Under the pieces are notes generated by a model that was not told the DNA's origin, searched no databases, and worked only from the letters and a program-made list of their open reading frames with translations. Shown one piece after another: positions 7,882 to 36,930 of a stretch of DNA of 41,944 nt. The stretch comes from a virus, in the IMG/VR virus record IMGVR_UViG_3300021062_000031, positions 1-41,944 of that record. One strand, 5' to 3'. Position numbers and translations under genes: made by a program. Each line of letters opens with the position of its first letter. Positions within the stretch are counted from its first letter, which is position 1.

Positions 7882-7942
7882 GTCGATATCTCCTATACAG
7901 ATATTGGCCAGCCCTAGGATGTTAGCCGCATCGCTAGGGCAC
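7882..7942 (-). promoter_or_regulatory. Two-hairpin leader of HNH-AP2 gene, copy A
   Basis: On the minus strand, hairpin I (7912-7939) pairs CCCTAG with CTAGGG and, inside, GATG with CATC around a 7-nt loop. After a TGGCC-containing linker, hairpin II (7886-7904) pairs ATATCT with AGATAT around the loop GTATAGG. The Shine-Dalgarno AGGAG straddles the loop and 3' stem of hairpin II. Copies B and C have the same architecture with compensatory changes. Confidence 0.65.
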
Positions 7943-7948
7943 CTTTCT

Positions 7949-7977
7949 ATTCTACCTAAAGTACAAGCCTGCATAAA
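7949..7977 (-). promoter_or_regulatory. Candidate promoter of HNH copy A
   Basis: The -10 element TAGAAT lies just upstream of hairpin I, at the same distance as in copies B and C. A 17-bp spacer gives a weak -35 (TTTATG) inside the last codons of the DUF1353 gene, so the cassette's promoter overlaps the recoded tail of its target. Confidence 0.45.
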
Positions 7978-8459
7978 GCCTCGTATTTGAGCTGATCCTC
8001 TTCGTCAATCCCGTGCCAAGAGGGTAATCCGAAGATCTGAACGGCGGAAAACATAAGCTTCCGTTTAATAGGGCCTACTCCGGCTTCTCGCATCAGTCTC
8101 CCAAACATACGATTACACTCAGTGAAGGTCCATGACCTAGAAGCCTCTTGCCAGATCCCCCCCCTCTCCATCTGAAAAGACCCTGTAGGCAAAATGCTCC
8201 GACCAGTCCCTTTTCTATGCCAGAGAAATTGCCAATCGTGAATCAAGGCAGCGGTTCTGTGCTTACCATCCGGGAGAAATCCTAGGCTCCAAGCAATTTG
8301 CGGAGTGCTGGCAACGTCTGTTTTAAATCCAGCGGGGATCCTAATGCGAAAAGTGCGGCCGTCTTTTTCCCATTTGTACGTAAAGGTTTCAATCAGTTCA
8401 TACAGGGGTTTGCCGTTGGCGGTTTCGCCGATGAGGTCGAGTTTAGGAGTAAAGGGCAT
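7956..8459 (-). CDS. DUF1353 family phage protein (167 aa)
   Basis: The start is the ATG at 8459 behind GGGAG. The core pattern is DUF1353: an N-terminal beta region (KPLYELIETFTYKW), then RIPAGFKTDVASTPQIAWSL, then an Ala-Leu-Ile-His-Asp-Trp motif (TAALIHDWQFLW), and a C-terminal helix with FGRLMREAGV. Proteins of this family sit near phage lysis or tail genes; their biochemical role is not established. The last 16 residues duplicate the tail of the downstream endonuclease, so its natural end was probably displaced by the mobile cassette and replaced by a recoded version. Confidence 0.85.
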   Translation of the reverse strand: MPFTPKLDLIGETANGKPLYELIETFTYKWEKDGRTFRIRIPAGFKTDVASTPQIAWSLGFLPDGKHRTAALIHDWQFLWHRKGTGRSILPTGSFQMERGGIWQEASRSWTFTECNRMFGRLMREAGVGPIKRKLMFSAVQIFGLPSWHGIDEEDQLKYEALCRLVL

Positions 8460-8592
8460 CTCTTGTCTCCCTGATCGGGGTGTGAACAAAGACCGTGATA
8501 TCTTCTTCCGAAATGAAAGGCTCACATTCGCAGCAGCGGTCATCGATATGGCAATCCTCTTCGCCGATAGGGAAGATATGAGAGAAGATCAT
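8443..8592 (-). CDS. Tiny acidic Cys/His protein (49 aa)
   Basis: It starts at an ATGA overlap with the endolysin stop and overlaps the DUF1353 start by 17 bases, filling an otherwise empty gap. It contains DCHIDDRCCECE, a dense Cys/His cluster suited to metal binding, in an acidic background. No family known. Support is the coupling and the natural composition; no clear SD is seen. Confidence 0.6.
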   Translation of the reverse strand: MIFSHIFPIGEEDCHIDDRCCECEPFISEEDITVFVHTPIRETRDALYS

Positions 8593-8963
8593 GGCTTGAA
8601 CCGCCGCTTTGGTCCCGTATCCAGATGCGTCCAGCCGGAAGTTAACTCCAAACCACCTCTCCAGTCTTTCAACAGGCTTTGCGTTACCTTGGGAGATACG
8701 CCCTTCACCACAAAATCAGCCGCCTGCCCTCTCATATGGTAGGAATTGGGCGCTCCCCCGATCTTCCGGTTATGTTCTGGACATCGGTAGCCGCTGGTAA
8801 TGGTGATGGGTTTATTCCCATGAAGCTTGCGGACATCTTCCATGACCCGTGCAATGTCTTGGATGTTATGCAGAGCGGTGGGCGGGATCTCGCACTGGCC
8901 GCACTTGCACAGGAACTCTCTTAACTTGAAGTGTTCAGAGAGGTTCATATTGGGATCGATCAT
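8589..8963 (-). CDS. Peptidase M15 endolysin (peptidoglycan L,D/D,D-peptidase)
   Basis: A 124-residue M15A-type zinc peptidase that would cleave cell-wall peptides during lysis. Metal ligands and catalytic motifs are visible: SGYRCPEHNRKIGG, then SYHMRGQAADF with H76 and D83, then GWTHLDTG with H113. Length is that of a single catalytic domain with no binding domain. An N-terminal CKCGQC motif may hold an extra metal. It lacks a signal peptide, so a holin is needed; it overlaps the upstream exported protein by four bases. The late-operon position fits. Confidence 0.9.
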   Translation of the reverse strand: MIDPNMNLSEHFKLREFLCKCGQCEIPPTALHNIQDIARVMEDVRKLHGNKPITITSGYRCPEHNRKIGGAPNSYHMRGQAADFVVKGVSPKVTQSLLKDWRGGLELTSGWTHLDTGPKRRFKP

Positions 8964-9349
8964 TCAGGCTGTTCTGCTCTCCACGTTGCATCCAGCTCAG
9001 GCAGGATGTAGCTGTATTTCGTGAAATGCGTCCAGAGTTCGGCTTTCACGTCATCGCCGACTTTCGTAAAAACCTGCATCGGAATCGGCATGGCCACCCG
9101 GCCATCCACCGGGTGAATGGTGGGCTCGGCGTAGCGCTGGGTGCCGGATGCATTGGGATAGTGCATCTTGTAGTCGGCAAAGACCTTTTTCATCTTGGCG
9201 CTGCCCTTGCTCTGCACCGTTTCAAAGCTCTTGTTCAGCGCGTTAAAAGCCGCCAGGTTAGCCGCCGGGTTGCCGAGGTCCCAGACAAACCAGTCGGCAC
9301 GCGCTGGGCTGGCCAGCAGCAAGAGGGCAAACAGAATGAAGCGTTTCAT
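8960..9349 (-). CDS. Exported protein of the lysis region (129 aa)
   Basis: A clear Sec signal peptide opens the protein (MKRFILFALLLLASPARA, cleavage expected before DW). The mature part is a compact soluble domain with aromatic residues and no Cys, so not a classic spanin lipoprotein. It overlaps the endolysin start (ATGA-type) and the preceding gene by one base. A role in the periplasm during lysis or at the cell surface is plausible; no family recognised. Confidence 0.75.
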   Translation of the reverse strand: MKRFILFALLLLASPARADWFVWDLGNPAANLAAFNALNKSFETVQSKGSAKMKKVFADYKMHYPNASGTQRYAEPTIHPVDGRVAMPIPMQVFTKVGDDVKAELWTHFTKYSYILPELDATWRAEQPE

Positions 9350-10263
9350 CAGGCGGCAACCTCCCGGTATGCGGAACGCCGGCGGAATGGCAGAATGACG
9401 GCGGATGACAAGCCGTACTTGCTGCGCAGGTAGTTTTCCACGATTTGTCGGTTGCTGTCGCTCAGGGCGGTGTTGTAGACCAGGATTTCAAAAATCGTTC
9501 CGTTCCACTGGTTGGTCCCGGCAATCGTGCAACCGATCCGGATGGCCATCGAATCCGTGTCGGAGGTGCTGCCGGTGCTGGTGTAAGTGGTGTTGTTCAG
9601 CTCCAGCGCGCCATTGACCCAAGCTTTGGCCGTGGTGGCATTGTGATCCACCAGATACGTCAGATAAGTGTTCTGGTCGGTGGCGTAGTCGTTGTTTGTG
9701 CCGGTGTTGATGGATGTGTTCCCATCCGCATCCAGTCTTCGACCTTGAATCGCCATGCGGTTGGTGGCGGTGACATCGGCGGCGAAACGCGGGTTGGATC
9801 CGGAAGTGCCGGTGGATACCATCAGGGCTCGGCGAGTGGCGGCAGCGGCGGGCATCTTGGCCACGATGAACACGGTGTAGCTCGAAAGATTCCGAAGCAT
9901 CCCCAGACCTCCGGCGGAGATGGCTAGAAAATCATCCGTGTTATCGATTGTGGCACCGTTGAATCCGTTGAGGGTTACGGTGCCCCAGAGCGGTTGATTG
10001 GCTTTGGTTGCCTGGACGAAATCATAGCCGCTGCCGGTGCTGGCCTGGTTGGCCCAGGTGGAGACGGTGGTGGTGGACATGCTGGTATCGGTGGTGACGC
10101 CGGTATCCGGTTTCAGCCAGAGGCGCAATCCGGAAATAGTGTCTGGGTTTATTGCCAGACGGTACCCGCCGAGATTCCCCGAGAACCCCGAATAGAACCC
10201 AGCTAGGCAAATCTGGTTAAACAGCAGGGCGAATGAAAGGAGAAGGACAAGCCAGCGTTTCAT
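9349..10263 (-). CDS. Exported LamG/concanavalin-like protein (304 aa)
   Basis: It begins with a Sec signal peptide (MKRWLVLLLSFALLFNQICLA). From about residue 40 it has the LamG-like jelly-roll pattern common in phage receptor-binding and surface proteins: SGLRLWLKPDTG, VSTWANQAS, YTVFIVAKM, AKAWVNGALELNN, IRIGCT, WNGTIFEILVYNTAL, VENYLRSKYG. The C-terminus ends in a short Arg-rich tail. The fold suggests carbohydrate or surface binding. A cleavable signal on such a protein is odd for a virion component, since virions assemble in the cytoplasm. Confidence 0.75.
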   Translation of the reverse strand: MKRWLVLLLSFALLFNQICLAGFYSGFSGNLGGYRLAINPDTISGLRLWLKPDTGVTTDTSMSTTTVSTWANQASTGSGYDFVQATKANQPLWGTVTLNGFNGATIDNTDDFLAISAGGLGMLRNLSSYTVFIVAKMPAAAATRRALMVSTGTSGSNPRFAADVTATNRMAIQGRRLDADGNTSINTGTNNDYATDQNTYLTYLVDHNATTAKAWVNGALELNNTTYTSTGSTSDTDSMAIRIGCTIAGTNQWNGTIFEILVYNTALSDSNRQIVENYLRSKYGLSSAVILPFRRRSAYREVAA

Positions 10264-10264
10264 A

Positions 10265-10696
10265 TTAACGGCCTGTAAAGTTCAGGAAGGGGGCTTGCAA
10301 CACGTACAGCAGCATGGAGGTCACGGCTACCGACACTTGCATTTTTAGCGCTTCTCCGGGCTGGGTGCAGACAATCGGGGCACCAATCGGGGCACCAAAA
10401 ACCTGATTGGCGGCGAGTTCCAAGGTTAACAGCGAGGTGGTTCCGGATTTAAAAGTCACGTTTGTGGCCGAAGTTTCGGCCATGGCCATGCCTACCACGC
10501 AAGCCATCTTGTCGGATCCCGGTGTCACAATGGTCAGATCAGAGGCAGTGGTGTCAAAACTAACGACATACGGGGTAACGGGACCAGCTCCAGCGATTCG
10601 CATCCCATGCGCAGTCTGGGCAGTAGCGGCATTGGCGGCAAATGCAGCCGGGCAAGACAAAACAACCGCCAATAGGGCGGCAAGTAGTTTTTTCAT
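10265..10696 (-). CDS. Exported small beta-rich protein (143 aa)
   Basis: Signal peptide MKKLLAALLAVVLSCPAAFA, then a Thr/Val/Ala-rich beta-type domain (PVTPYVVSFDTTASDLTIVT). The style resembles the exported protein at 22382-22891, although there is no clear sequence identity. Starts and stops are tightly packed with neighbours. Function unknown. Confidence 0.7.
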   Translation of the reverse strand: MKKLLAALLAVVLSCPAAFAANAATAQTAHGMRIAGAGPVTPYVVSFDTTASDLTIVTPGSDKMACVVGMAMAETSATNVTFKSGTTSLLTLELAANQVFGAPIGAPIVCTQPGEALKMQVSVAVTSMLLYVLQAPFLNFTGR

Positions 10697-10706
10697 GGGG
10701 AGGCTC

Positions 10707-11030
10707 CTATTTCAAGATGGTATCTAACAGTCTGTTGATAACCGGCCCAAACCGGGCGATATCCACGCCAACGGCTTTCAGGATGTACACCACCACCCAA
10801 GCCTGCGCCGTTGCTAAAAAGATATTGGCCCGCTTGCTGTGGGCTTTCACCAGCACAGTCCGGACCAGTGCGAACAGGTTATGCATATCGGCCTTTTCTT
10901 CAGCAGTGACACCGCTGATTTTGTCCACGTCCACACTCAGGGCATTGTGTTTCTCTGCCAGTTCCAGAATGTGCGGGCGTTCATCTGGCGGAAATTTGGA
11001 GATATCGACGAATTGAGACGGCTTTTCCAC
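10707..11030 (-). CDS. Small protein with one membrane segment, holin candidate (107 aa)
   Basis: The N-terminal 65 residues are charged and soluble (DISKFPPDERPHILELAEKH). A single hydrophobic segment follows at about residues 68-90 (ANIFLATAQAWVVVYILKAV), then a short amphipathic tail. Position among lysis and tail genes makes a holin or holin-accessory role possible; one membrane segment and a long cytoplasmic N-terminus are compatible but not diagnostic. Confidence 0.65.
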   Translation of the reverse strand: MEKPSQFVDISKFPPDERPHILELAEKHNALSVDVDKISGVTAEEKADMHNLFALVRTVLVKAHSKRANIFLATAQAWVVVYILKAVGVDIARFGPVINRLLDTILK

Positions 11031-11044
11031 GCGTCACCGACTTT

Positions 11045-11437
11045 CTATGGTTGCTTCAACACTTCCAGCATTTCTTGCCGGTAGGGCTCAAGCTCCACTG
11101 GCAATGTGGGTTCTTTAATCGCTTCGGCGGCTGCATCCAGCATCCCAAGCTCCAACGCCCTTTCCACTACTCCCGACAACTTCAGCAGTTCTTTTTTCAG
11201 CTTTGGGGAAACCAACTGTTCAGTCAGTGCCCGCTTGAAGATGGCTGTGATCTGAACAAACTTGGGTGGCAAGGGAACAGGCCGTGCGGCGTCCTCTTCC
11301 CGCTGGTGGAGATCTTCGGGTGATTCGTCTACGTAGAGAGTAGGGACGCCCGGCGGTTGCGCAATGGCTTTCGCGGCTTCGGCTTGAGGGCAGAGTAAAA
11401 AGACCGCCAGCGCGATCAACAAGAAACTATGCAGCAT
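11045..11437 (-). CDS. Exported helical protein (130 aa)
   Basis: A Sec signal peptide (MLHSFLLIALAVFLLCPQAEA) precedes a Pro-rich segment and then charged helices (FKRALTEQLVSPKLKKELLK). It overlaps the tail fibre gene by 11 bases. It may act in the periplasm; no family recognised. A Cys in the signal region (LLCPQ) does not make a proper lipobox. Confidence 0.7.
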   Translation of the reverse strand: MLHSFLLIALAVFLLCPQAEAAKAIAQPPGVPTLYVDESPEDLHQREEDAARPVPLPPKFVQITAIFKRALTEQLVSPKLKKELLKLSGVVERALELGMLDAAAEAIKEPTLPVELEPYRQEMLEVLKQP

Positions 11438-12629
11438 GGGAGAATGCCTCCTTCAAATCGTTTTGATTCTTCCGGCGACGCCGCCACAGGAACACCCCGA
11501 TGGCAATCCAGACAACGGTCCCATCTGATTTCCTCACGCCGTACAGGTAAAAGTTTCCGGTGGAGATGTTGCCGCTCTCAGGCAGAAACCGAACACCGCT
11601 GATGGCGGTGGTGGCTTCGTACCGGGCGGAACCTCGAATATCAAACAGGAACGTGGACTGGTCATAGGAGATCTGCCATTGCAGTTGTTTCTTGTGGGTA
11701 GTGCCGGAGGGCTTGAAGACTTGCATAACCAGGCTGGCCCCGGAGGACGCGGCCGTCGTATCCATCCCATCCACGCCGGGAAGAGTCAAGGCAATCTGCG
11801 CCGCCCCCGCAGAACCGTGCGTTCCTTCCGCTGCCGAGGAAGCAAATTGCGCACCGTAGATGTAATCCGAAGCATCCGATTGCCAAGCGGCGAGCGTCGC
11901 ATCATACACACGGCAGTAAAGACCCTTGTCATCCGTCGTTAATCGGATGCTATCCGCCACAATGATGTAATAGTCATACGTGCTGTTGATGCTGGTGGTG
12001 AAATCCACGGATGTAGAGTTGCTGGCAGTAGCCGTGGCCAGGAGAACCATCGTTCCCGAACTGCCGTTAACCCAAGCACTCCCGTTATACGTCAGGGCTT
12101 GCCCGCTGGACGGAGAGGAAATGGTGACATCCGAGAGATCATCCAGAGTCGAGGCGGCGTCGCCTGTCATCAGGAAGTTTTTGGAAGATCCGTTGCGGTA
12201 GCCTTTGAACTGGTGGGCGGTGGAATCGTACCCGAAATCCCCGTTGGCTGCTGGCGTGTACCCGGCCGCACCCACCTTGATGTTATTGTCTTTGAGTAGA
12301 ACGCCGTCAATCGTCACCCCGGCGGCGGCGGTTCGTTCAGCGATGGAGTCCACTTTGATCGGGGTGGTGGCGCTGGAGAATGTCGCGATGCCGGAGAATG
12401 TCGTGGCCCCGCTGAATACATTATCCCCACTCAGAGTGTTTGCAACCCCTCTCCCCATTTTGTTATTCATCGTTGTGATGAGTTGGTTAAATTCTTGGTT
12501 GACTTGGGAACTCTGTATAGTGGTTCCTGCCGTAAAATTAAATAAACGACTAATGTCGTCTGCCGCTCCCCACGCCACGCTTAGCAGCAAGATTGCAGCA
12601 CAATACAACCCAATCAAGGGTTTGCGCAT
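11427..12629 (-). CDS. Tail fibre-like protein with signal peptide and C-terminal membrane/Arg segment (about 400 aa)
   Basis: Two ATGs are close (12635 and 12629); GGAGG is well spaced only for the second. The body is typical phage fibre: SGDNVFSGATTFSGIATFSS repeats, YDSTAHQFKGYRNGS, LDDLSDVTISSPSSGQALTY, then a C-terminal beta domain ending in YLYGVRKSDG, where fibres commonly stop. It also has a Sec signal at the N-terminus (RKPLIGLYCAAILLLSVAWG). At the C-terminus is an extra hydrophobic stretch plus Arg cluster (TVVWIAIGVFLWRRRRK). This is the layout of a secreted, membrane-anchored surface protein rather than a cytoplasmic virion part. Fibre assignment is by motif. Confidence 0.8.
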   Translation of the reverse strand: MRKPLIGLYCAAILLLSVAWGAADDISRLFNFTAGTTIQSSQVNQEFNQLITTMNNKMGRGVANTLSGDNVFSGATTFSGIATFSSATTPIKVDSIAERTAAAGVTIDGVLLKDNNIKVGAAGYTPAANGDFGYDSTAHQFKGYRNGSSKNFLMTGDAASTLDDLSDVTISSPSSGQALTYNGSAWVNGSSGTMVLLATATASNSTSVDFTTSINSTYDYYIIVADSIRLTTDDKGLYCRVYDATLAAWQSDASDYIYGAQFASSAAEGTHGSAGAAQIALTLPGVDGMDTTAASSGASLVMQVFKPSGTTHKKQLQWQISYDQSTFLFDIRGSARYEATTAISGVRFLPESGNISTGNFYLYGVRKSDGTVVWIAIGVFLWRRRRKNQNDLKEAFSHAA

Positions 12630-12650
12630 TTTCATGACCTCCGCTTTTAT

Positions 12651-13373
12651 TTAGACTTGGTTTAGTCTGGCGTTATCGCCATGCAGTTCAAGAGATTTGG
12701 CGTTGTATGCCCTTGCCGCCGCAGATTCGGTGTCGAAGTAGCCAATGAAATACGATTTCTTATCCTTGTAGGCGCGGGCTACCCACTTTCTAAAAGTCTT
12801 GTGATAGGACACCCCTCTGTGTTTTGAATACCGCTTTTGTGGTTTTGTAGCCAGCCACAGGGCCAGTTCGGATTCCTGCTCTGCTGAAAAGGTATTAAGG
12901 CGGGCATATTCGCCATGGTAAAGCAGGGCAGCTTTGTTATAAGCGTCTGCCGCCTCTAGAATGTGGTCAAAATACCCAAGGAACTTCTTTTTCCTGTTGG
13001 TTACTATTTCGGCACCCCAAAAGCCGTAAGCTTTAGACCAGTTTACCCCTTTAAAACCACTAGTGTTTCTGGGGAGTTTCCCTTTATTGCGAAGATTTTG
13101 GCCTCGTGTCACGGTTCTTAAGTTGAGTTTCCGGTTATCAAGGCCGTTGCCGTTGATGTGGTCGGTATCAAAACCGGCAGGTGTTTTATTAACTAATTGA
13201 TGCATTGCCACACGGGCAACGTACTTCCCTTTTTCCCTGATGTTCCGATAAGCATAGCCATGGTGGTCGTAAGACCACTTCCACTGCATCAGGAAATCGT
13301 AATCCTCGGCGTCCACAATCGCCTGATGTCCCCGGATCCCCACCGGAATTAGTCGCGTGTTATCATCGGTCAT
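12651..13373 (-). CDS. HNH homing endonuclease with two AP2 domains (copy B)
   Basis: The start is the ATG behind AAGGAG in hairpin II of its leader; about 240 residues. N-terminal lead-in LIPVGIRGHQAIVDAEDYDF, then the HNH site (VAMHQLVNK, TDHINGNGLDNRKLNLR), a first AP2-type segment (SGFKGVNWSKAYGFWGAEIV...YHGEYARLN) and a second one (KHRGVSYHKTFRKWVARAYK...LHGDNARLNQV). AP2 segments bind DNA; HNH domains nick or cut it. It is an intergenic free-standing mobile gene between an internal virion protein and the tail fibre. Its own promoter and leader match those of the two other copies. Confidence 0.9.
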   Translation of the reverse strand: MTDDNTRLIPVGIRGHQAIVDAEDYDFLMQWKWSYDHHGYAYRNIREKGKYVARVAMHQLVNKTPAGFDTDHINGNGLDNRKLNLRTVTRGQNLRNKGKLPRNTSGFKGVNWSKAYGFWGAEIVTNRKKKFLGYFDHILEAADAYNKAALLYHGEYARLNTFSAEQESELALWLATKPQKRYSKHRGVSYHKTFRKWVARAYKDKKSYFIGYFDTESAAARAYNAKSLELHGDNARLNQV

Positions 13374-13431
13374 GTCGGTTCTCCTTTTCAGAATCGGCCA
13401 CGCTCCCGGCAGTTCGTACCTGCGCGGGGGC
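13374..13431 (-). promoter_or_regulatory. Two-hairpin leader of HNH-AP2 gene, copy B
   Basis: On the minus strand hairpin I (13405-13428) pairs CCCG-GCAG (one bulged C) with CTGC-CGGG around a 7-nt loop. Hairpin II (13376-13396) pairs CGATTCT with AGAACCG (one A-C mismatch) around GAAAAGG, with the SD (AGGAG) in loop and stem. The sequence between, AGCGTGGC, is shared with copy C. Confidence 0.65.
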
Positions 13432-13437
13432 ACCTTT

Positions 13438-13466
13438 ATTTTAGCCTGATGGGCTGCCTCACTCAA
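13438..13466 (-). promoter_or_regulatory. Promoter of HNH copy B
   Basis: TTGAGT and TAAAAT are separated by 17 bp, a good sigma70-type match. The predicted start falls at the 5' edge of hairpin I, so the leader would begin at the transcript end. Confidence 0.65.
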
Positions 13467-13472
13467 TGTGGG

Positions 13473-13497
13473 CTGACTGGTAAAATTTACCAGTCAG
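13473..13497. repeat. Perfect 25-bp palindrome near the 5' end of HNH cassette B
   Basis: CTGACTGGTAAA and TTTACCAGTCAG are perfect inverted arms around a single central base. It sits between the internal virion gene and the promoter of the endonuclease. There is no T tract in the direction of late transcription, so it is not a standard terminator. It could be a protein-binding site or a cassette boundary; copy C also has a palindrome at this position. Confidence 0.6.
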
Positions 13498-13527
13498 GTC
13501 TGGTGCGTGTTTTTTACGCATCATGGG

Positions 13528-18532: not shown

Positions 18533-18533
18533 T

Positions 18534-29410: not shown

Positions 29411-29852
29411 CGGGGGAAACGTTGAATCCCGGTGTCTCTGTCTCTTCCGGGTCTTGCTTGGCGAGCTCGGCCAGTTCTTTCTTGTAGCGGTGCTTCTGTC
29501 TTTCCAGAATCAACGCCAGCCCGGCCTTATGGTCATTGTCTGCAAACTTGCTGGAGTAGCCTTCGCCGTCTTGAATGGTGAGCCCAATCAAACCAGACCG
29601 GCGGGCTTCCCTGATTTGTTTGCCGGTGTCCAGAATGAGGTCCATATAGACCGAATGAATCTCTTCCAGTTCATCTAGAACGTCATTCTCGATTTTTGCG
29701 GATATTTCCGATTTTTTACGAGTCCAGCCTTCGTGGTTTGCCTTGTCGCTGACTTGCTTTGCGGTTAATCCGAAATCAGCGGCGATGTCCTTGGGTTTCT
29801 CCCCGGTGAGGTAGCGTTTCTTGATGGCCGCCCAATTGACGGGTTTCTTCAT
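29403..29852 (-). CDS. terS: Terminase small subunit (149 aa)
   Basis: The N-terminus holds a helix-turn-helix (IKKRYLTGEKPKDIAADFGL, then KQVSDKANHEGW) of the terminase small-subunit type, followed by a coiled-coil middle and an acidic C-terminus. It overlaps both the large subunit and the glycosyltransferase start. It recognises phage DNA for packaging. Confidence 0.85.
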   Translation of the reverse strand: MKKPVNWAAIKKRYLTGEKPKDIAADFGLTAKQVSDKANHEGWTRKKSEISAKIENDVLDELEEIHSVYMDLILDTGKQIREARRSGLIGLTIQDGEGYSSKFADNDHKAGLALILERQKHRYKKELAELAKQDPEETETPGFNVSPDA

Positions 29853-30838: not shown

Positions 30839-31113
30839 CAGTAGTCACCCTCGCATTCATGGCAAATCGGGCAGCCATCAATGTTGTTCGTGTGGTAAAG
30901 CTGGCAGAGCTGTTTTTCCAGTGGTTCAAGAATTTCTGAATGGAAACTCTGTTGCCGCACCTGCTCTTGCTCTTTGGTTTTTTGCTGTGCTATCTCTTCC
31001 AAAGTAGGCGGTGGGCGGTCTGGATACTTTGGGAGTGGAGCGGTAAGCATCCGGTGATACCAGTGCCGGTTTGTTTCCTGAATCAGGTTGAAAAGCATTT
31101 CGGCACTATCCAT
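30835..31113 (-). CDS. Small protein with C-terminal Cys motif, between two glycosyltransferases (92 aa)
   Basis: It overlaps both neighbours. The first two thirds is helical and Gln/Glu-rich. The C-terminus is CPICHECEGDYW, a compact three-Cys/His zinc-like motif. It may be a partner of the flanking glycosyltransferases; no family recognised. Confidence 0.7.
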   Translation of the reverse strand: MDSAEMLFNLIQETNRHWYHRMLTAPLPKYPDRPPPTLEEIAQQKTKEQEQVRQQSFHSEILEPLEKQLCQLYHTNNIDGCPICHECEGDYW

Positions 31114-32029
31114 TCAGCACCTCTCTCTCCCATTGTTTGGCAATGTCCATCCAGTCTTTGGGCGGCAGGCCCTGTGGGGGTGCTTTATCCAACCCGTGAA
31201 AGGTGGGGTTGTTTATTTTGAAGTCAGTCCAGCATGCCCGCTCCGGCAATGCCCCAAGGTTTGTGACCCATGGAATGCACCCGTGCGCAATCGCCTCATC
31301 CAGAGCCAAGCAGTAAGTCTCCGGCCAGATGCACGGATAAAAGAAAATACTGGCCCGGCTGTACTCGGCATAAAGCTGAGCCTGATTCAGAGCACCCTTT
31401 AGCTCTACGCCGGGCATTTCTGACAGTTCATCAAAGATTTTCTGGTACTGGCTGTCTTTTTCAGCTTCCCCATAGGTTCCCATTGATGAGCAGATGGCTA
31501 TGGTGGCTCGGGGTTCCCGTTCTTTGATCTGGGTGAACAACTTGGGGATTCGTTCAAGGCCCCGGAATGGTGTGCTGGCATAGATAAGCCGAAATGGATC
31601 TTTTTTAGTGGGACTGTGCAATTCACTGGTCCAGACACCGTGACCGATGGTTGTAGACTCCATCCGGAGAACTCGCCGAAAATCGTCAGCGTGACACTGA
31701 CTGAGAGTAACAACACGATCAGCAAAACAGCGGGCAAACGCAGCATTTTGCCGGATGACGGGTTGATCTGAGAAATGATGCGCCCACCAGATTTTCTTGG
31801 CCTTCGGGAAGTTCTCCAGCAGTTCAGCAACTTGTGTAATGACAACATCCGGATTGCCTTCATATGCCCGGATTTGCTCCGGAGTGGTGAGCCAGGTGAC
31901 TTCATGCCCGAGTTTTTGAAACGCTTCTCCAAGGAACACACAGGCCTTTTCCGTGCCGCCGCTGGGAAGCTCTCGAACGCTCCGGGAGTCATAGGGCTTC
32001 TCCCGCGCGAAGATAAACAGTATTTGCAT
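31106..32029 (-). CDS. GT-B (family 4-like) glycosyltransferase (307 aa)
   Basis: ATG behind GAGGAG. N-terminal Rossmann-like half with the donor/acceptor loop LPSGGTEKACVFLGEAFQKL. C-terminal half with IYASTPFRGLERIPKLFTQI and the GT4 signature PETYCLALDEAIAHG (residues 236-250), whose two Glu contact the nucleotide sugar. Slightly shorter than typical GT4 enzymes (about 350-400). Co-transcribed with a GT2 enzyme, so a two-step glycan may be built. Confidence 0.85.
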   Translation of the reverse strand: MQILFIFAREKPYDSRSVRELPSGGTEKACVFLGEAFQKLGHEVTWLTTPEQIRAYEGNPDVVITQVAELLENFPKAKKIWWAHHFSDQPVIRQNAAFARCFADRVVTLSQCHADDFRRVLRMESTTIGHGVWTSELHSPTKKDPFRLIYASTPFRGLERIPKLFTQIKEREPRATIAICSSMGTYGEAEKDSQYQKIFDELSEMPGVELKGALNQAQLYAEYSRASIFFYPCIWPETYCLALDEAIAHGCIPWVTNLGALPERACWTDFKINNPTFHGLDKAPPQGLPPKDWMDIAKQWEREVLNG

Positions 32030-32042
32030 GCTCTCCTCAATG

Positions 32043-32072
32043 AAAAACCCCGAGGCTGGCTGGAGCCTCGGG
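32043..32072 (-). terminator. Strong Rho-independent terminator inside the late region
   Basis: Minus-strand CCCGAGGCT and AGCCTCGGG form a perfect 9-bp stem with a 6-base loop, followed by GTTTTTC. It lies between the DUF3307 gene and the glycosyltransferase-terminase operon, so late transcription must be antiterminated or restarted. Confidence 0.85.
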
Positions 32073-32107
32073 TAGTTGTGAAACGTTGAGATTAGGATGT
32101 AGGAGTG

Positions 32108-32142
32108 AAAAATAAAACCGTCCAGAATGGGAGGACTGGACG
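32108..32142 (-). terminator. Upstream tandem terminator
   Basis: Minus-strand CGTCCAG and CTGGACG form a 7-bp stem around a 10-base loop, followed by GTTTTATTTTT. It precedes the second terminator by about 35 bases. Confidence 0.7.
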
Positions 32143-32166
32143 AGTTGGAGTGTTAAGAAGATCTCT

Positions 32167-32466
32167 CTATGCTTTGCACCACAAGGCTTTACAGGCGATA
32201 TGCAGCCATTGGTCCGTGTGGAAATTGATTTTCCCGTCACACTTCATATAATCAATGACCGCGTGGCAGATGGTTTCCGCAATACCAAAGAGCAGGCTGC
32301 CGGTGATGAGGTAGACGAGAACACCGTGCATCAACCCATGACAGAGAAGGACATACGGCCACATTTCAGAACCGGTTTTGTGGCTCTTGAACTTGGCGAT
32401 GAAATCATTTTGCAAGGCATAATCAGCGAGTGCGTGACCCGCCAGCAAGAGGAAAAACTTTTCCAC
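32167..32466 (-). CDS. DUF3307 family membrane protein (99 aa)
   Basis: I place the start at the GTG overlapping the previous stop (TAGTG), behind GGGAG. The DUF3307 pattern is clear: LLAGHALADYALQNDFIAKF, LLCHGLMHGVLVYLI, ICHAVIDYMKCDG, DQWLHIACK. It has two to three membrane helices and conserved His/Asp residues in the membrane plane. The family is found in phages and bacteria; function unknown. It is the last gene before the tandem terminators. Confidence 0.85.
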   Translation of the reverse strand: MEKFFLLLAGHALADYALQNDFIAKFKSHKTGSEMWPYVLLCHGLMHGVLVYLITGSLLFGIAETICHAVIDYMKCDGKINFHTDQWLHIACKALWCKA

Positions 32467-32804
32467 TAGGCTCCCACTATTCGTTTCACTTGAAGAAAAG
32501 GAAAATGGGCTTGGCTGGCTTCTACAATGTCTGATTCTCTTGCAAGCTTGCAGCGTTGGCGGTAGGTGGCTTTCCGGCTGTTGTCCTGAACCCGGTGAGC
32601 TGGCCCCCATCCTCCAGGGTAGCGGTTCCGGGTGAATACGTGATCCTTGCGGCAAGCGTTTTCTTTGCACCAGGCCAGCACCACCTGGATTTCCAAAAGA
32701 CCTTCCCTGGATTCATCCGGGGTGACGCTGATCAATCGATCCGCACGGATGTCCAAGGCTTGCCCGTGATGCATCAGCCATGACGGGGGGATCCAATCCA
32801 GCAC
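32466..32804 (-). CDS. Hypothetical first gene of the late transcript (112 aa)
   Basis: GTG start with GGAGAG at good spacing. The protein is basic and soluble. It contains MHHGQALDIRADRLISVTPD, then LEIQVVLAWCKENACRKD and HVFTRNRYPGGWG. As the first gene between the promoter and tandem terminators it is well placed to be a late regulator, such as an antitermination factor, but no family is recognised. Confidence 0.7.
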   Translation of the reverse strand: MLDWIPPSWLMHHGQALDIRADRLISVTPDESREGLLEIQVVLAWCKENACRKDHVFTRNRYPGGWGPAHRVQDNSRKATYRQRCKLARESDIVEASQAHFPFLQVKRIVGA

Positions 32805-32985
32805 GCTTTCTCTCCATTTTGGGCGTAGTTATTCAGGGTAGATCCCTTCGGACCCTCTGCTCCGACCGTGCTCCGAGAGCGCTTCCGTCCTCATTGCCCG
32901 TGTCGTTGCGGTTTGCCGGTCGGCTCCGGCTCAATTCCACGTCTTACAACTCTAGGGGACTACTACTATGTCATCTCTTACCTCA

Positions 32986-33014
32986 ACTATAGAGCCTGTT
33001 GCTTGTTTTTTCAA
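32986..33014 (-). promoter_or_regulatory. Candidate late promoter
   Basis: TTGAAA and TATAGT are separated by exactly 17 bp on the minus strand, directly downstream of a terminator. It would start transcription about 175 bases before the first late gene. Confidence 0.75.
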
Positions 33015-33028
33015 GGGTTTCAGCCAAT

Positions 33029-33054
33029 AAAAAAGCCGCTGGTTTAGGGCGGCT
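33029..33054 (-). terminator. Terminator of the 33.2-34.3 kb minus operon
   Basis: Minus-strand AGCCGC and GCGGCT pair around a 9-base loop and are followed by six T. It insulates the late promoter from the upstream minus operon. Confidence 0.8.
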
Positions 33055-33228
33055 GCATACAAAAGGTAATGGTAATCGTTGGCTCAACTATATCATTGTT
33101 TTTATTGTCTATCCACATAGGTAATGGATGAGCGGGTGGGGACGGGGTAGATTGGGGTGGGATGTTTCTGAATCAAATTTGCCTTTTACAAGTCAGCCTT
33201 AAGTTTTCCACGCTTTTTACCTTTGTTG

Positions 33229-33250
33229 CCCCGGTTGCTCGGGGTTTTTT
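33229..33250 (+). terminator. Orphan plus-strand terminator
   Basis: CCCCG and CGGGG pair around GTTGCT, followed by six T. No plus-strand gene ends here, so it either stops antisense transcription or ends a small untranslated RNA. Confidence 0.6.
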
Positions 33251-33500
33251 ATTGGTTGGGGACAGGGATTGAAGCATTCACAAAGCCGGGAGGAGCGCCA
33301 GGAACCAAGAAGCCGTCTTCAAGGGTTGCGGGAGCCCCGATAAACCAGTCGCGCCCCTCTTTCTCTATGATGTAACCGTGCTTTCTGCCTTCTGCAATCA
33401 CCCATTCAGGAACGAAGTATTCCAGCGGCCTGGATGGGGTCACCGTGTTTTCCCGCAATCTCTCGGCGGCTTCTCTGACCATTTCCGGGGTGAGTGCCAT
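33249..33500 (-). CDS. Small hypothetical protein (83 aa)
   Basis: Helical N-terminus (TPEMVREAAERLRENTVTPS) and a small beta domain (PEWVIAEGRKHGYIIEKEGR). No family recognised. It is the last gene of a minus operon that reads 34330 to 33249. Confidence 0.7.
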   Translation of the reverse strand: MALTPEMVREAAERLRENTVTPSRPLEYFVPEWVIAEGRKHGYIIEKEGRDWFIGAPATLEDGFLVPGAPPGFVNASIPVPNQ

Positions 33501-33517
33501 ATAAATACCTTATCTAT

Positions 33518-33730
33518 TTATTTGTTAGGGGCTGGCGGTAGCGGCATCCAGTGGGTTACATGCCATAAGTCTTGGTATTTCCCCGTCAGATCCCACCACT
33601 TCCCAACTTCGTGAGATGAAACCTGCCCCATAGTAACCGTTTCGGCATACCGGTTGTCATTGATAGGGCGCCACCAGAATAGCACCCATTTATCTAAAGG
33701 CGCGGTTTCAATTGGCTGCCATTCCCTCAT
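33518..33730 (-). CDS. DUF551 domain protein (70 aa)
   Basis: The DUF551 pattern is complete: WQPIETAPLDKWVLFWW at the start and THWMPLPPAP at the end, with Trp-rich strands between. DUF551 proteins are frequent in phages and have no known function. A shorter relative of its N-terminal motif occurs at 35170-35496. Confidence 0.85.
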   Translation of the reverse strand: MREWQPIETAPLDKWVLFWWRPINDNRYAETVTMGQVSSHEVGKWWDLTGKYQDLWHVTHWMPLPPAPNK

Positions 33731-33749
33731 TATCTATTTATAATCCTTT

Positions 33750-34148
33750 CTATTTAGTCTTGGAAGGGGGTTTCGGCTTTTTGCGGGCTGTAATCGCTTC
33801 ATCTAGTAGGGTTTCCGTCATCTGACTCGGCGTTACTCCTGCCCTTAAGGCTTCTTCTTGAATGAATGCGGCAATCGTCCGCTTTACCCTCATTGCGATG
33901 GAGATGCGGCGCGGGCGGTAGTGCTGCTTATTCAAAAGCTTATACCCTCTCGCCTTGAAATCAGCAATTGCTGCACGCTCAGCATCCCGCGCCTTCGCCT
34001 TCGGAACCACCTGAAGGATCTCCATTCTGGCGAAGGGTACCCGGCTAACCCTGTGGGCTTGCTCCCGGACCTTGGGGTCCGCTGCCTGCCCAATATAAAC
34101 CGGGATGTCATTCGTATCATATAGTGCGTAAATGTATTTTTCGGTCAT
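33750..34148 (-). CDS. GIY-YIG nuclease domain fused to ribbon-helix-helix-like tail (132 aa)
   Basis: Residues 5-75 fit a minimal GIY-YIG fold: YIYALYD and VYIGQ strands, R28 (KVREQAH), E57 (RDAERAAI) as metal ligand and N73 (YKLLNKQ). The last 55 residues (ISIAMRVKRTIAAFIQEEAL, then VTPSQMTETLLDEAI) look like a ribbon-helix-helix DNA-binding domain. A compact site-specific nuclease or regulator is likely. Catalytic Tyr and Arg of the first motif are present. Confidence 0.75.
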   Translation of the reverse strand: MTEKYIYALYDTNDIPVYIGQAADPKVREQAHRVSRVPFARMEILQVVPKAKARDAERAAIADFKARGYKLLNKQHYRPRRISIAMRVKRTIAAFIQEEALRAGVTPSQMTETLLDEAITARKKPKPPSKTK

Positions 34149-34330
34149 ACGTCAATCTCCAAATCATCCGGCTCATCTTTATACGCCAGCCAGCAGGCCG
34201 ACCAGCCAAAAAACTTGTAGCCGCGCCAGTCTTGGATCTCGCCGCGCTTGAATTGCCCGACAACCTTGCGCAAATAGACTTGGTGAACGTCTTCACGCTT
34301 TGCCAGCTTGGCTAAAGATAGTAGTTTCAT
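34145..34330 (-). CDS. Small helix-turn-helix-like regulator candidate (61 aa)
   Basis: ATG behind AGGGAA, first gene of the minus operon and next to the operator region. The start SLAKLAKREDVHQVYLRKVV looks like a helix-turn-helix, followed by a basic and Trp-rich domain. It overlaps the GIY-YIG gene by four bases. Autoregulation through the nearby palindromes is an inference. Confidence 0.65.
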   Translation of the reverse strand: MKLLSLAKLAKREDVHQVYLRKVVGQFKRGEIQDWRGYKFFGWSACWLAYKDEPDDLEIDV

Positions 34331-34358
34331 TTCTGTTCCCTGCCGCCAATACCACTAC

Positions 34359-34387
34359 ATTATATAACTACAGAGTAAACAATTCAA
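34359..34387 (-). promoter_or_regulatory. Minus-strand promoter of the 34.3-33.2 kb operon
   Basis: TTGAAT and a perfect TATAAT are separated by 17 bp, ending about 30 bases before the ATG at 34330. Confidence 0.8.
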
Positions 34388-34396
34388 TCAAAAAGA

Positions 34397-34443
34397 TTAC
34401 CACAGGGTATTGTGTTATTGTTTACCACGTGGTAACCTATATC
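34397..34443 (+). promoter_or_regulatory. Plus-strand promoter with operator in its spacer
   Basis: TTATTG (34415-34420) and TATATC (34438-34443) are 17 bp apart. The perfect palindrome TTACCACGTGGTAA (34422-34435) fills the spacer, and a related imperfect copy TTACCACAGGGTAT lies at 34397-34410, centre to centre 25 bp away. This is the layout of a repressible promoter shared by two divergent operons. Confidence 0.6.
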
Positions 34444-34473
34444 TATAGTCAAGTTAAACCAAGGAGATCAGCA

Positions 34474-34734
34474 ATGGATAACTTTAAATACTTCACCGAA
34501 TGCGAAGGCGAAACGGTTCAACTCCTGAATGTTTACCATGACGGCCATATCTCCAGCAAAGCCCACCACTTCACCGGCACCTGCCCCAAGTGCGGCCAGA
34601 AGCACACTGCTAACCGTAAGATCGAGTATAAGAACCGCCCGAGCCTCCACCAGTGCGATGCTCGCTGTGAAGGTGCCACCGGCCACAAGTGTGAATGCGC
34701 TTGCGGCGGTAAGAATCACGGACGGGCGGCCTAA
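34474..34734 (+). CDS. Cys-rich zinc-binding protein (86 aa)
   Basis: ATG behind AAGGAG. The protein contains CPKCGQKH, a CDARC pair and CECACGGKNHG, enough for two zinc sites. N-terminal region has aromatic residues (NFKYFTECEGETVQLLNVYH). First gene of a plus operon; the stop overlaps the next ATG (TAATG). Confidence 0.75.
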   Translation: MDNFKYFTECEGETVQLLNVYHDGHISSKAHHFTGTCPKCGQKHTANRKIEYKNRPSLHQCDARCEGATGHKCECACGGKNHGRAA

Positions 34735-34928
34735 TGGCTGCCCTGAGTGACTATGACAAGTTCATAGTGAAGCACCTCCAAACCCTGCAATGGCTGGAAT
34801 CCTTGGAGAAGGACTATCAGGCCAACAAGCTAAAGTTTCCGCGAGAACTGGAAGCCGCCACCCGGTCGCTGAAATTCATTCTGAACGAAATCGGTAAAAA
34901 GCAGATGACAGAAGGGAACCACCCATGA
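34734..34928 (+). CDS. Small helical protein (64 aa)
   Basis: Coupled by TAATG to the preceding gene and by an ATGA overlap to the next. All-helical, Leu/Lys/Glu-rich (FIVKHLQTLQWLESLEKDYQ). No known family. Confidence 0.65.
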   Translation: MAALSDYDKFIVKHLQTLQWLESLEKDYQANKLKFPRELEAATRSLKFILNEIGKKQMTEGNHP

Positions 34929-35122
34929 ACCCCACCTTGCAAAAACAACTGGATTTTATGGAACGCCTGATAGAAGACTATGAGCGCGGACTTGTTCAGA
35001 AAGAGCCTTTCCTGAGTATGGTTCGGGGAGGTTTCCGGGAAGCACTGGACATTGCTTTCAGAAGCGGGCGAACCTCTGGATGGGATGAAGCCTTTGAAAA
35101 AATCAAAGCACTCGAAGCTTAA
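34925..35122 (+). CDS. Small helical protein (65 aa)
   Basis: ATGA overlap with the preceding gene. Helical and charged (LQKQLDFMERLIEDYERGLV). Its length and character resemble its upstream neighbour, which suggests partner proteins. Function unknown. Confidence 0.65.
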   Translation: MNPTLQKQLDFMERLIEDYERGLVQKEPFLSMVRGGFREALDIAFRSGRTSGWDEAFEKIKALEA

Positions 35123-35169
35123 CCATCCCCTTAGTTACCCTCTATAAAGTGAATAGGAGAATTAGAAAA

Positions 35170-35496
35170 GTGAGCGGATGGCGAGACATGAAAAGCGCCC
35201 CTCGGGACGGGACACCCGTAAACATTAAGATTCAACTTGTGAGTGGTGCTGAAAAGATTTATGAACAATGCCGCTGGCATGAAAGCCGGATTGTGCAATG
35301 CGAGTGCTGCGAAATCTGCGGTGAAACATTTGATTCAATCAGCCGCGAAGGCTGGTATTCCAACTATATCCGGCTCCCCATTTGCAAGTATCTCGGTTGG
35401 AAACCGTTAAGTGAGGACCTTTATAGGTGTATGAGCTGCCGGGCGGATAACTGTGAATGCTCTAAGCTGCTAGCTGAGCGCGCTCCCCGCCACTAA
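35170..35496 (+). CDS. Zinc-motif protein with DUF551-like N-terminus (108 aa)
   Basis: I prefer the GTG at 35170, which has AGGAG upstream, over the in-frame GTG at 35149. The start SGWRDMKSAPRDGTPVNIKI matches the opening of DUF551 proteins. Then follow CECCEICGETF and later CMSCRADNCEC clusters, probably two zinc sites. It may be a DUF551 relative with added metal-binding loops. Confidence 0.7.
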   Translation: MSGWRDMKSAPRDGTPVNIKIQLVSGAEKIYEQCRWHESRIVQCECCEICGETFDSISREGWYSNYIRLPICKYLGWKPLSEDLYRCMSCRADNCECSKLLAERAPRH

Positions 35497-35539
35497 CCCA
35501 ATTGATGCAAGAATCTTATTTGAATATGGAGAATGAAAG

Positions 35540-35695
35540 ATGGCCAGCGGACGCCCTTTTGCCCCCGAATCTGATGAATGCGCTTGGTGTCAGCGAGAAA
35601 TCGAGGACATGCGCGACTGCTTCGATGTGGGGAACCCTTGGATGACTGGCAAGCACGAATATGTGTGCCGGGAATGCTGGGAAGAACGGGACTAG
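35540..35695 (+). CDS. Tiny zinc-ribbon protein (51 aa)
   Basis: ATG behind GGAG. Two Cys pairs, CAWC near residue 14 and CREC near residue 43, are separated by about 25 residues, a regular four-Cys ribbon. Ends just before the operon terminator. No specific family. Confidence 0.65.
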   Translation: MASGRPFAPESDECAWCQREIEDMRDCFDVGNPWMTGKHEYVCRECWEERD

Positions 35696-35741
35696 CCTCT
35701 AACTAACTATATAGAATTTAGTCTTATATTTTTGAAAGGAG

Positions 35742-35768
35742 AACCCTTGCCGCCTGGTGAGGGTTTTT
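35742..35768 (+). terminator. Terminator of the 34.5-35.7 kb plus operon
   Basis: AACCCT and AGGGTT pair around a 12-base loop and lead into five T. It lies 47 bases past the last gene of the operon. Confidence 0.65.
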
Positions 35769-35898
35769 GCCTGATTAGAGAATACCAGCTAGGGACAGGT
35801 GGGAATAAAATGGCGGGTGGGTGTTGCCTTCAAGCTACAAAACCCTCTATAGCCTCTCCTTTTTGTGAGATACAGCGGTTAAACTTCCTTTTGGGATG

Positions 35899-35920
35899 CC
35901 TCGGTCATACCGGGGCTTTT
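35899..35920 (+). terminator. Terminator-like hairpin
   Basis: CCTCGG and CCGGGG can pair (one G-T) around TCATA and are followed by CTTTT. It lies just beyond the 3' end of the convergent methyltransferase gene and may limit plus-strand read-through. Confidence 0.35.
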
Positions 35921-35922
35921 CC

Positions 35923-36573
35923 TTATGAAATCAGGCGGAGCTGTTGGGGTTCAGGCAGATCTCTACAAACTGTAGACGGATCCCCAACTTGCAAATCAAT
36001 CTGATTCCCCCAAGCGTCCCAACCGGGATAGGGGCGGCGAGCAAAAAGTTCTATCTTGCGGCTGTCTGGATACATCTGATCAATCGCTCGGTGGATATCG
36101 TCAGGCTTTCTTGAGTGCTCGCCCCTCGGTCTTTGAATAACAGAGGGGTGCATCTTGCGAACTGGTGGCACGCTACCTCGCACGCCCAGCAAAACAATTT
36201 CGGGATTAGAAGCAGTGTAAAAACCAGGGCCATACACAGGGTGAGCGTCACCACGACGAGTTTTAACCCAAGTAAACGCAACCGTCGCATATCGAAACCC
36301 CCACCCTTTCAGCAACTCCACACTGAAGTCCAACCTCGGATAGGTTGCCCACATAAACAATGCACAGTTATCGGCCGCCAGCGTGTCAATGAACGACCGC
36401 ATGTCCAATAATTCGGCATCCTTCATCAGCGGGTAATGCTTCATCGCACCACCGCCGAATTTCGTCTTGTTTTTTCGCTCTCCGCCAGTCTTCCGATTGT
36501 TGTAATGCCAAGGCGGGTCGCACAATATCACGCTGTACCTCATTCCCTCATTATGATCCCCCAAGATCCCCAT
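35923..36573 (-). CDS. MT-A70 family N6-adenine methyltransferase (216 aa, start uncertain)
   Basis: The catalytic motif DPPW is in YSVILCDPPWHYNN (residues 19-22). FMWATYPRLDFSVELLKGWG, VAFTWVKTRRGD, and the S-adenosylmethionine-side segments IVLLGVRGSVPP and KIELFARRPYPGWDAWG are typical of MT-A70/phage DNA methyltransferases. It would methylate adenine in phage DNA, protecting it from host restriction. Either ATG at 36573 or that at 36543 may be used; neither has a well-spaced SD. It is transcribed alone. Confidence 0.85.
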   Translation of the reverse strand: MGILGDHNEGMRYSVILCDPPWHYNNRKTGGERKNKTKFGGGAMKHYPLMKDAELLDMRSFIDTLAADNCALFMWATYPRLDFSVELLKGWGFRYATVAFTWVKTRRGDAHPVYGPGFYTASNPEIVLLGVRGSVPPVRKMHPSVIQRPRGEHSRKPDDIHRAIDQMYPDSRKIELFARRPYPGWDAWGNQIDLQVGDPSTVCRDLPEPQQLRLIS

Positions 36574-36831
36574 GCCTAGTGTTCATGAAGAAAGATCAAG
36601 ATTCCCCCCATAGTTCAAAAGCATCATCAACAACAGCCTTACAACTTTATAAACAGCCATCCCCACCCGGATCCCATGCCATGATTCCCACAAACCGCCC
36701 AAGATATTCCCCATATTGGCGTATTTTCGTTTTCATTTCTTTACTATCTTGAGGGGACAGGGTTTTCCTGTTCGAGTGGAAATCGAGTGGTAACAACGTA
36801 AGAGGGCACATTAAGAATGGTTAATTTTCGA

Positions 36832-36860
36832 TTGAAGGGGATCCATCAGTTTTCTAATAT
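36832..36860 (+). promoter_or_regulatory. Promoter of HNH copy C
   Basis: TTGAAG and TAATAT are separated by 17 bp. The -10 lies within a perfect 20-bp palindrome (36850-36869). Predicted transcription would begin at the edge of hairpin I. Confidence 0.6.
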
Positions 36861-36869
36861 ATTAGAAAA
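36850..36869. repeat. Perfect 20-bp palindrome over the -10 of copy C
   Basis: TTTTCTAATA and TATTAGAAAA are exact inverted arms with no spacer. A palindrome covering a -10 element is a plausible operator. Copy B has a different palindrome just upstream of its promoter. Confidence 0.6.
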
Positions 36870-36930
36870 GCCCCCGCGCAGCCGGATACTGCCGAGGGCG
36901 TGGCCGATTCTGATATGGAGAACCGACACC
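36867..36930 (+). promoter_or_regulatory. Two-hairpin leader of HNH-AP2 gene, copy C
   Basis: Hairpin I (36871-36898) pairs GCAG with CTGC around the 7-base loop CCGGATA, with outer CG/CG and CCC/GGG pairs. Hairpin II (36905-36925) pairs CGATTCT with AGAACCG (one A-C mismatch) around GATATGG, with the SD in loop and stem. The linker CGTGGC is shared with copy B. Confidence 0.65.

Follow-up and report, generated by a model that had tools for sequence, protein, structure and literature searches.

Conserved leaders before phage HNH endonucleases and unrelated mobile genes as a candidate cis-antisense RNA module

Three HNH endonuclease genes in the window—the entire 41,944-nt stretch of viral DNA analyzed here (IMGVR_UViG_3300021062_000031)—each follow a leader of shared sequence and structure. 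The best terminase matches of the window are to Vibrio phages, at only about 28% identity. Features of the three copies are given below with coordinates and strand; SD denotes the Shine-Dalgarno site.

Copy A
7330..7881, minus: endonuclease gene A, HNH_3 + AP2, 183 aa; SD AGGAG at 7890–7894
7869..7874, plus: antisense extended −10 (TGT-TATTAT), within codons 3–5 of endonuclease A; enriched family-wide
7882..7908, plus: antisense hairpin II, 10-bp stem GTCGATATCT/AGATATTGGC, 7-nt loop CCTATAC; complementary to the SD region
7911..7940, plus: hairpin I, read as antisense terminator hairpin, with conserved bulge
7941..7953, plus: T-rich tract 3′ of hairpin I, antisense strand (ACCTTTCTATTCT)
7949..7954, minus: candidate sense −10 (TAGAAT), upstream of hairpin I

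Copy B
12651..13373, minus: endonuclease gene B, HNH_3 + AP2, 240 aa; SD AGGAGA at 13380–13385
13361..13366, plus: antisense extended −10 (TGT-TATCAT)
13374..13398, plus: antisense hairpin II, 9-bp stem GTCGGTTCT/AGAATCGGC, loop CCTTTTC
13402..13431, plus: hairpin I, read as antisense terminator hairpin; sense C·A is G·U here
13432..13444, plus: T-rich tract, antisense strand (ACCTTTATTTTAG)
13438..13466, minus: sense promoter-like site TTGAGT-17-TAAAAT

Copy C
36857..36869, minus: T-rich tract, antisense strand (TTTTCTAATATAT)
36870..36899, minus: hairpin I, read as antisense terminator hairpin; sense C·A is G·U here
36903..36927, minus: antisense hairpin II, 9-bp stem GTCGGTTCT/AGAATCGGC, loop CCATATC
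36935..36940, minus: antisense extended −10 (TGT-TATTCT)
36931..37425, plus: endonuclease gene C, HNH_3, 164 aa, TTG start; SD GGAG at 36917–36920

A covariance model (R1), whose training alignment comprises these three copies and 61 rows independent of the window, scores the copies at 54.2, 52.4, and 43.4 bits (E 1e-9 to 1e-12). Because the next-best R1 match within the window reaches only 12 bits, we count exactly three copies. The initial annotation had located the leaders correctly and had described them as alignable with one another, with an inner stem of hairpin I that reads GATG/CATC in copy A and GCAG/CTGC in B and C, 7-nt loops, and a hairpin II loop of the form GnnnnGG; each of these descriptions holds in all three copies. 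The TGGC core that it placed between the hairpins is conserved but forms part of hairpin II on the antisense strand. Overlooked were a bulged C (174 of 180 leaders), the identity of the mismatches in B and C as C·A, which corresponds to G·U on the other strand, and the extension of the conserved unit into the coding region.

Pattern and model searches together yielded 180 distinct leaders, which are mutually related, so that counts across them are not independent. One carrier is Propionibacterium phage Anatole, with the module at 449–505 of NC_041890. In a 64-leader alignment prefiltered for pairing, 97% of hairpin I cells are paired, both sides have changed in 76 cells, and the covariation score is 0.279 (0.055 when shuffled). 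An unfiltered pattern scan that left two inner pairs free agrees: Among the viral strings 59 of 67, and among the genomic ones 34 of 39, are complementary at both. The stems covary in this larger set, and there is good support for the earlier proposals that selection acts on RNA structure and that the leader works at the ribosome-binding site. A comparison with Rfam 15, proposed at the same time, returned no match to the leader at the gathering score, either in the window or in the loci searched, and seven loci gave nothing even at E ≤ 1; among the latter the ctRNA families are likewise silent, including at L198, whose payload is RepA_C. On this result we reject identity with an Rfam family, and blastn of the leader against phages gave chance-level matches only.

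We assign the conserved structure to the antisense transcript because of four properties: a promoter element, a T-tract, wobble asymmetry, and folding energy. The antisense extended −10 TGTTATnnT is present in 3/3 window copies. An antisense TANNNT located 22–67 nt past hairpin I occurs in 82% of leaders, compared with 4–10% in eight control stretches (18% of leaders have none in this range), and a version with G two bases upstream occurs in 59% compared with 1–5% of controls. Its distance to hairpin I peaks at 36 nt, inside the coding region. There the motif varies in reading frame (98/31/17) and in distance from the start codon; the shifting frame rules out a conserved peptide, and we reject pairing with the leader because the motif is mostly unpaired in folds. 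The antisense logo shows no −35, and a consensus scan that accepts only sites with a −35 hexamer, stems free of bulges, and 5 or more T in 8 called neither antisense promoter nor terminator at the three sites. A sense TANNNT within 30 nt upstream is found in 52% of leaders. At least 3 T in the 6 nt after hairpin I occur on the antisense side in 64% and on the sense side in 1%; the tract is imperfect in many copies and could arise in part from a sense transcript whose 5′ UTR is A-rich.

Wobble pairs and folding energies distinguish the strands as well. The inner pairs of hairpin I include 17 A·C, equivalent to antisense G·U, vs. 0 sense G·U. Because the first search pattern fixed the 5′ arm and thereby favored sense C·A over U·G, the test was redone without loci from that one-sided pattern, giving 14 vs. 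0. Hairpin II wobbles number 190 as antisense G·U against 19 as sense, whereas shuffled linkers give 456 against 304. Of 147 leaders, 88% have a linker that is more stable when folded as antisense (Wilcoxon p 5e-22; 54% in control stretches), with mean z of −2.98 compared with −1.15 for sense; within the window the antisense and sense folding energies are −27.3 and −20.7 (copy A), −28.0 and −21.7 (copy B), and −31.8 and −21.6 kcal/mol (copy C). A YUNR U-turn pattern appears in 52% of antisense loops and 25% of shuffled ones. Hairpin I is highly conserved and presents, on the sense strand, a bulge and a GNRA-like loop; we dropped the latter as a docking motif since the antisense U-turn explains the pattern as well.

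RNA structure over the ribosome site is established for T4 homing endonucleases, I-TevI among others, and the initial annotation had raised a lock of this kind. Regulation by the sense leader alone—a 5′ UTR with two hairpins, the second of which covers the SD, in the manner of T4 I-TevI, a riboswitch, or a thermometer—would account for the strong conservation of hairpin I and for a hairpin II stem that contains the SD in 79% of leaders but in 19% of shuffles. These sense stems, although enriched, are weak in the window (−3.8 to −5.3 kcal/mol, vs. about −10 for antisense), and the antisense strand explains them better. The wobble asymmetry, T-tract, and folding energy also favor the antisense strand, and a sense leader leaves without a role the coding-region motif that an antisense RNA would use as its −10 element. 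We consider a Shine-Dalgarno lock folding by itself unlikely and not the best reading of this strand-specific evidence. The T4 I-TevI type shares with the present leaders a ribosome-site structure on a phage homing endonuclease, but it consists of a sense-strand hairpin only, and we know of no antisense RNA at the T4 hairpins.

Our preferred interpretation, held with good confidence, is that each leader constitutes a sense/antisense RNA control module in which a cis-encoded antisense RNA would block translation. The structural and promoter evidence for such a predicted RNA is strong: The sequences themselves establish the conserved structure and the strand it belongs to, the −10 element, the T-tract, the overlap with the ribosome site, and the association with unrelated mobile genes; its transcription, its exact ends, and the repression of translation are what we infer from sequence. 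An opposite-strand promoter, with its extended −10 in codons 3–7, would initiate a small RNA close to the start codon, which would run back across the start codon, the SD (as its own hairpin II), and the leader, and would end at hairpin I, a terminator in that direction. The predicted product, about 65–72 nt with two stem-loops, would be complementary over its full length to the segment of the endonuclease mRNA where translation starts. Once paired, it would keep ribosomes from binding and would probably open the mRNA to attack by RNase III, by analogy with IS10 RNA-OUT and plasmid CopA. Payload expression would remain low and would drop further as copy number rises.

The leader also precedes genes for HNH_3, HNH_5, GIY-YIG, integrase, resolvase, transposase (IS1182), RepA, and Cas1 proteins, as well as small, unrelated actinobacterial ORFs; the payloads are unrelated mobile or potentially harmful genes. 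A type I toxin–antitoxin system, with the antisense RNA as antitoxin and the payload kept as an addiction module, would have the same RNA architecture, and among the actinobacterial payloads are many small proteins whose N terminus is hydrophobic. Type I toxins, however, are small, usually hydrophobic toxic proteins, whereas the window payloads are HNH endonucleases of 164–240 aa and, together with most payloads on phage contigs, belong to the 150- to 300-aa nucleases or recombinases rather than to short membrane toxins; we regard this alternative as quite improbable, though less clearly so for some actinobacterial payloads. The leader is absent from 77/77 HNH-AP2-relative loci checked elsewhere, which, with the unrelated payloads, rules out an element specific to HNH-AP2 genes. 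For the same two reasons, and since a DNA site predicts no strand-specific wobble bias, the earlier suggestion of a binding site for the encoded protein, considered here as an RNA or DNA site serving autoregulation or marking the endonuclease's own target, is not the best reading and seems very unlikely, despite its palindromic character and the HNH-AP2-type genes behind all three window copies.

The predicted antisense RNA resembles several described regulators. RNA-OUT is a 69-nt antisense RNA covering the transposase translation start (PMC5006887). As in RNA-OUT and CopA, a promoter element lies on the opposite strand, judged here from sequence evidence; the predicted RNA overlaps the translation initiation region, spanning the start-codon region, the SD, and the leader; and it would have stable stem-loops and an intrinsic terminator, although the strict scan called no terminator at these sites. 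RNA-OUT of IS10/Tn10 serves a single transposon, whereas one conserved predicted RNA, with two stem-loops and a bulged terminator hairpin, accompanies many unrelated gene families here. In IS200, a stem-loop in the tnpA leader sequesters the ribosome site, and a divergently encoded antisense RNA, art200, is also present (PMC12594629). That system belongs to one IS family, differs in sequence and structure, and is further set apart by the reported pairing of art200 with the tnpA transcript, which promotes degradation.

Plasmid antisense RNAs (R1 CopA, pMV158 RNAII, and the p42d and pGA1 ctRNAs) share with the leader module stem-loops, an intrinsic terminator, U-turn loops of the YUNR type (PMC4485353), and a bulged nucleotide in the stem, a feature of antisense RNAs according to work cited in that article. 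The targets of these plasmid RNAs are replication initiators, and the Rfam ctRNA models do not match the leader at E ≤ 1 in the seven loci. The SAS/ESAS elements of cluster K mycobacteriophages likewise recur in front of numerous phage genes and carry an SD motif preceded by imperfect inverted repeats (PMC3203893). They differ in consensus, GGGATAGGAGCCC (PMC12699233), and in their 17-bp repeats, in which the authors saw changes not supporting RNA pairing and proposed DNA-binding sites. Identity with SAS/ESAS is ruled out, as the three window leaders, read through, contain neither GGGATAGGAGCCC nor a close match.

Phages often carry free-standing homing endonucleases, and to our knowledge how the expression of these genes stays low is understood for only a few cases, such as T4. 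The titles and abstracts retrieved mention no antisense RNA for free-standing homing endonucleases, and a literature search for homing endonucleases or actinobacterial IS elements under antisense control gave no lead; if correct, the module would be the first such RNA on these genes as far as the searched literature shows, and it points to a general answer to how their expression is controlled. It would also give annotation a new RNA family of about 65–72 nt and help correct start codons.

The wider distribution suggests one RNA regulator common to unrelated mobile genes. It seems fairly likely that one conserved antisense RNA has been coupled, as a portable off-switch, to many unrelated selfish genes of actinobacteria and phages—homing endonucleases of several folds, integrases, transposases, and replication proteins—with the copies in a genome partly or fully independent through diverged loops and stems. 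Actinobacteria would then harbor a natural set of partly orthogonal antisense repressors. In the window, stems and loops vary among the copies: B and C could cross-pair, whereas A differs considerably from both.

The two-hairpin leader that the initial annotation placed 5′ of three endonuclease genes aligns in all three copies.

7882–7942, minus strand: leader copy A, 5′ of endonuclease gene A
13374–13431, minus strand: leader copy B, 5′ of endonuclease gene B
36867–36930, plus strand: leader copy C, 5′ of endonuclease gene C

A covariance model trained on 64 leaders, these three among them, recovered the three copies from the 41,944-base record at 54, 52, and 43 bits (runner-up match, 12 bits). 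The description of the genes as HNH-AP2 held in part: Pfam HNH_3 matches endonucleases A, B, and C, and AP2 matches B, falls marginally below the family cut-off in A, and gave no match in C in the Pfam scan.

Pattern scans of viral contigs and GTDB genomes, followed by covariance model searches, yielded 180 distinct leaders; a bulged C is present in 174 and a 7-nt loop in 127. One viral-contig scan placed no constraint on either side of two inner pairs in hairpin I, the distal stem-loop; complementarity at both pairs held in 59 of the 67 distinct strings from viral contigs and 34 of the 39 from genomes. In the 64-leader alignment, a set filtered for pairing, 97% of hairpin I cells pair, 76 are changed on both sides, and covariation scores 0.279 versus 0.055 in shuffles. 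Two-sided changes also occur in outer stems (e.g., CCCCGG/CCGGGG and GGCCGGG/CCCGGCC). Among evenly sampled genomes, matches at E ≤ 1e-4 were found in at least 16 of 150 Actinomycetota (best candidates scored, genome used as centre included) and in none of 150 Pseudomonadota or 98 other Planctomycetota. Some genomes carry 9 to 16 copies.

A pair that forms a G·U wobble in one strand appears as an A·C mismatch in its complement. Read in the sense direction (the strand of the endonuclease gene), hairpin I without its outermost pair has 17 A·C and no G·U; the outermost pair adds a further 62 versus 0. Because one search pattern might bias this count, we repeated it without that pattern's loci (14 versus 0). 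Hairpin II, the stem-loop over the Shine-Dalgarno site, lies in the linker between hairpin I and the gene, outside the search patterns, except that the genome scan included the first bases of the linker; sense A·C and G·U numbered 190 versus 19 there, and 456 versus 304 in shuffled linkers. The antisense linker had the lower fold energy in 88% of 147 leaders (p = 5e-22; control stretches, 54%), with folding z of −2.98 antisense and −1.15 sense. Antisense hairpin II in the window's copies has 9–10-bp stems and 7-nt loops, and fold energies are −27.3, −28.0, and −31.8 kcal/mol antisense versus −20.7, −21.7, and −21.6 sense. The TGGC core previously assigned to the region between the hairpins is indeed conserved, but it forms part of the far arm of the longer antisense hairpin II stem. 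YUNR-type motifs, usual in loop-to-loop contact of cis-encoded antisense RNAs (PMC4485353), occur in 52% of antisense loops versus 25% in shuffles.

The conserved region continues past the start codon. About 36 nt beyond hairpin I it reads A-NNN-TA-N-C, the complement of which, G-N-TANNNT, is by sequence an extended −10 element on the antisense strand. Antisense TANNNT is present in this interval in 82% of leaders versus 4–10% in eight control stretches farther downstream, and GNTANNNT in 59% versus 1–5%; the window's three copies carry TGTTATTAT, TGTTATCAT, and TGTTATTCT. A peptide signature is ruled out, since neither the motif's distance from the start codon nor its reading frame is constant. 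Beyond hairpin I, a T-rich tract with three or more T in a 6-nt stretch occurs in 64% of leaders on the antisense side versus 1% on the sense side. No −35 element is visible on the antisense strand, so the putative promoter would depend on the extended −10; strict promoter and terminator scans made no call at the window's antisense sites. Just 5′ of copy C hairpin I (36850–36869) lies a palindrome, TTTTCTAATATATTAGAAAA, that may act both as the antisense T-tract and as a sense −10. At another leader locus (L046, 8562–8593), a hairpin I copy is followed directly by TTTCTC, without the ribosome-site hairpin, and looks like an ordinary sense-direction terminator.

The predicted antisense RNA would start near the start codon, cover the ribosome site, and end after hairpin I (mean 61 nt to the hairpin I base, plus T-tract). 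From this position, we infer that it represses translation. Its purpose may be multicopy inhibition, silencing in the lysogen, or protection against a toxic product. Within the window, cognate pairs are predicted to form duplexes of −126 to −145 kcal/mol; the predicted values are −54 to −62 kcal/mol for A with the others and about −104 for B–C. On these values, copy A should be regulated separately, with possible cross-reaction between B and C. Antisense RNAs encoded in cis are an established mechanism class. IS10 RNA-OUT, an antisense RNA of 69 nt that covers the transposase start region, blocks ribosome binding and confers multicopy inhibition (PMC5006887); the predicted RNA has the same anatomy. 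IS200 has both a hairpin at the ribosome site and an antisense RNA (PMC12594629). No Rfam family matches the leader, and in the literature searched, itself partial in coverage, we found neither this RNA family, nor one such RNA shared among unrelated mobile genes, nor its use on free-standing homing endonucleases.

Downstream genes are varied. Among 79 viral-contig proteins, the window's three included and multiple matches per protein allowed, Pfam identified HNH_3 (25), zf-His_Me_endon (12), HNH (11), HNH_5 (7), AP2 (4), GIY-YIG (3), phage integrase (3), and one each of resolvase, Bro-N, transposase, and replication protein. Chromosomal counterparts include IS1182 transposases, RepA_C, Cas1, an integrase resembling XerC/D, and numerous small proteins to which Pfam assigns no family. 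The leader was absent from all 77 HNH-AP2-relative loci checked in viral contigs and named phages. Given this variety and absence, the leader is a module that moves independently of the endonuclease family, and regulation through the encoded protein, for which the leader had been suggested as a binding site, is therefore unlikely.

In the window, endonuclease A ends in ~16 residues (DEEDQLKYEALCKLVLA) that repeat the C-terminus of the gene immediately upstream (DEEDQLKYEALCRLVL; 7330–7390 and 7956–8010, minus strand), as if a leader-plus-endonuclease cassette had been inserted at the upstream gene's 3′ end and the tail restored. In Streptomyces and other actinobacterial chromosomes (loci L179–L229 and L265–L284), the antisense module precedes multicopy small proteins with a hydrophobic N-terminus (e.g., MRKHSAWIFELLLRLLLPARGRHRSA and MSIIHALLRWILGV), most without a family in the Pfam scan; these are candidates for new type I toxin-like genes. 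Two actinobacterial MAG contigs (L203 and L227) have a Cas1 gene apparently immediately behind the module, an unusual companion of a mobile-gene leader under antisense control. In Propionibacterium phage Anatole (L234; NC_041890), the module lies at 449–510, before HNH gene gp2, whose annotated start (base 772) seems to lie too far 3′; from the module, a GTG near base 505 is the predicted start, which would make the HNH protein 251 aa long.
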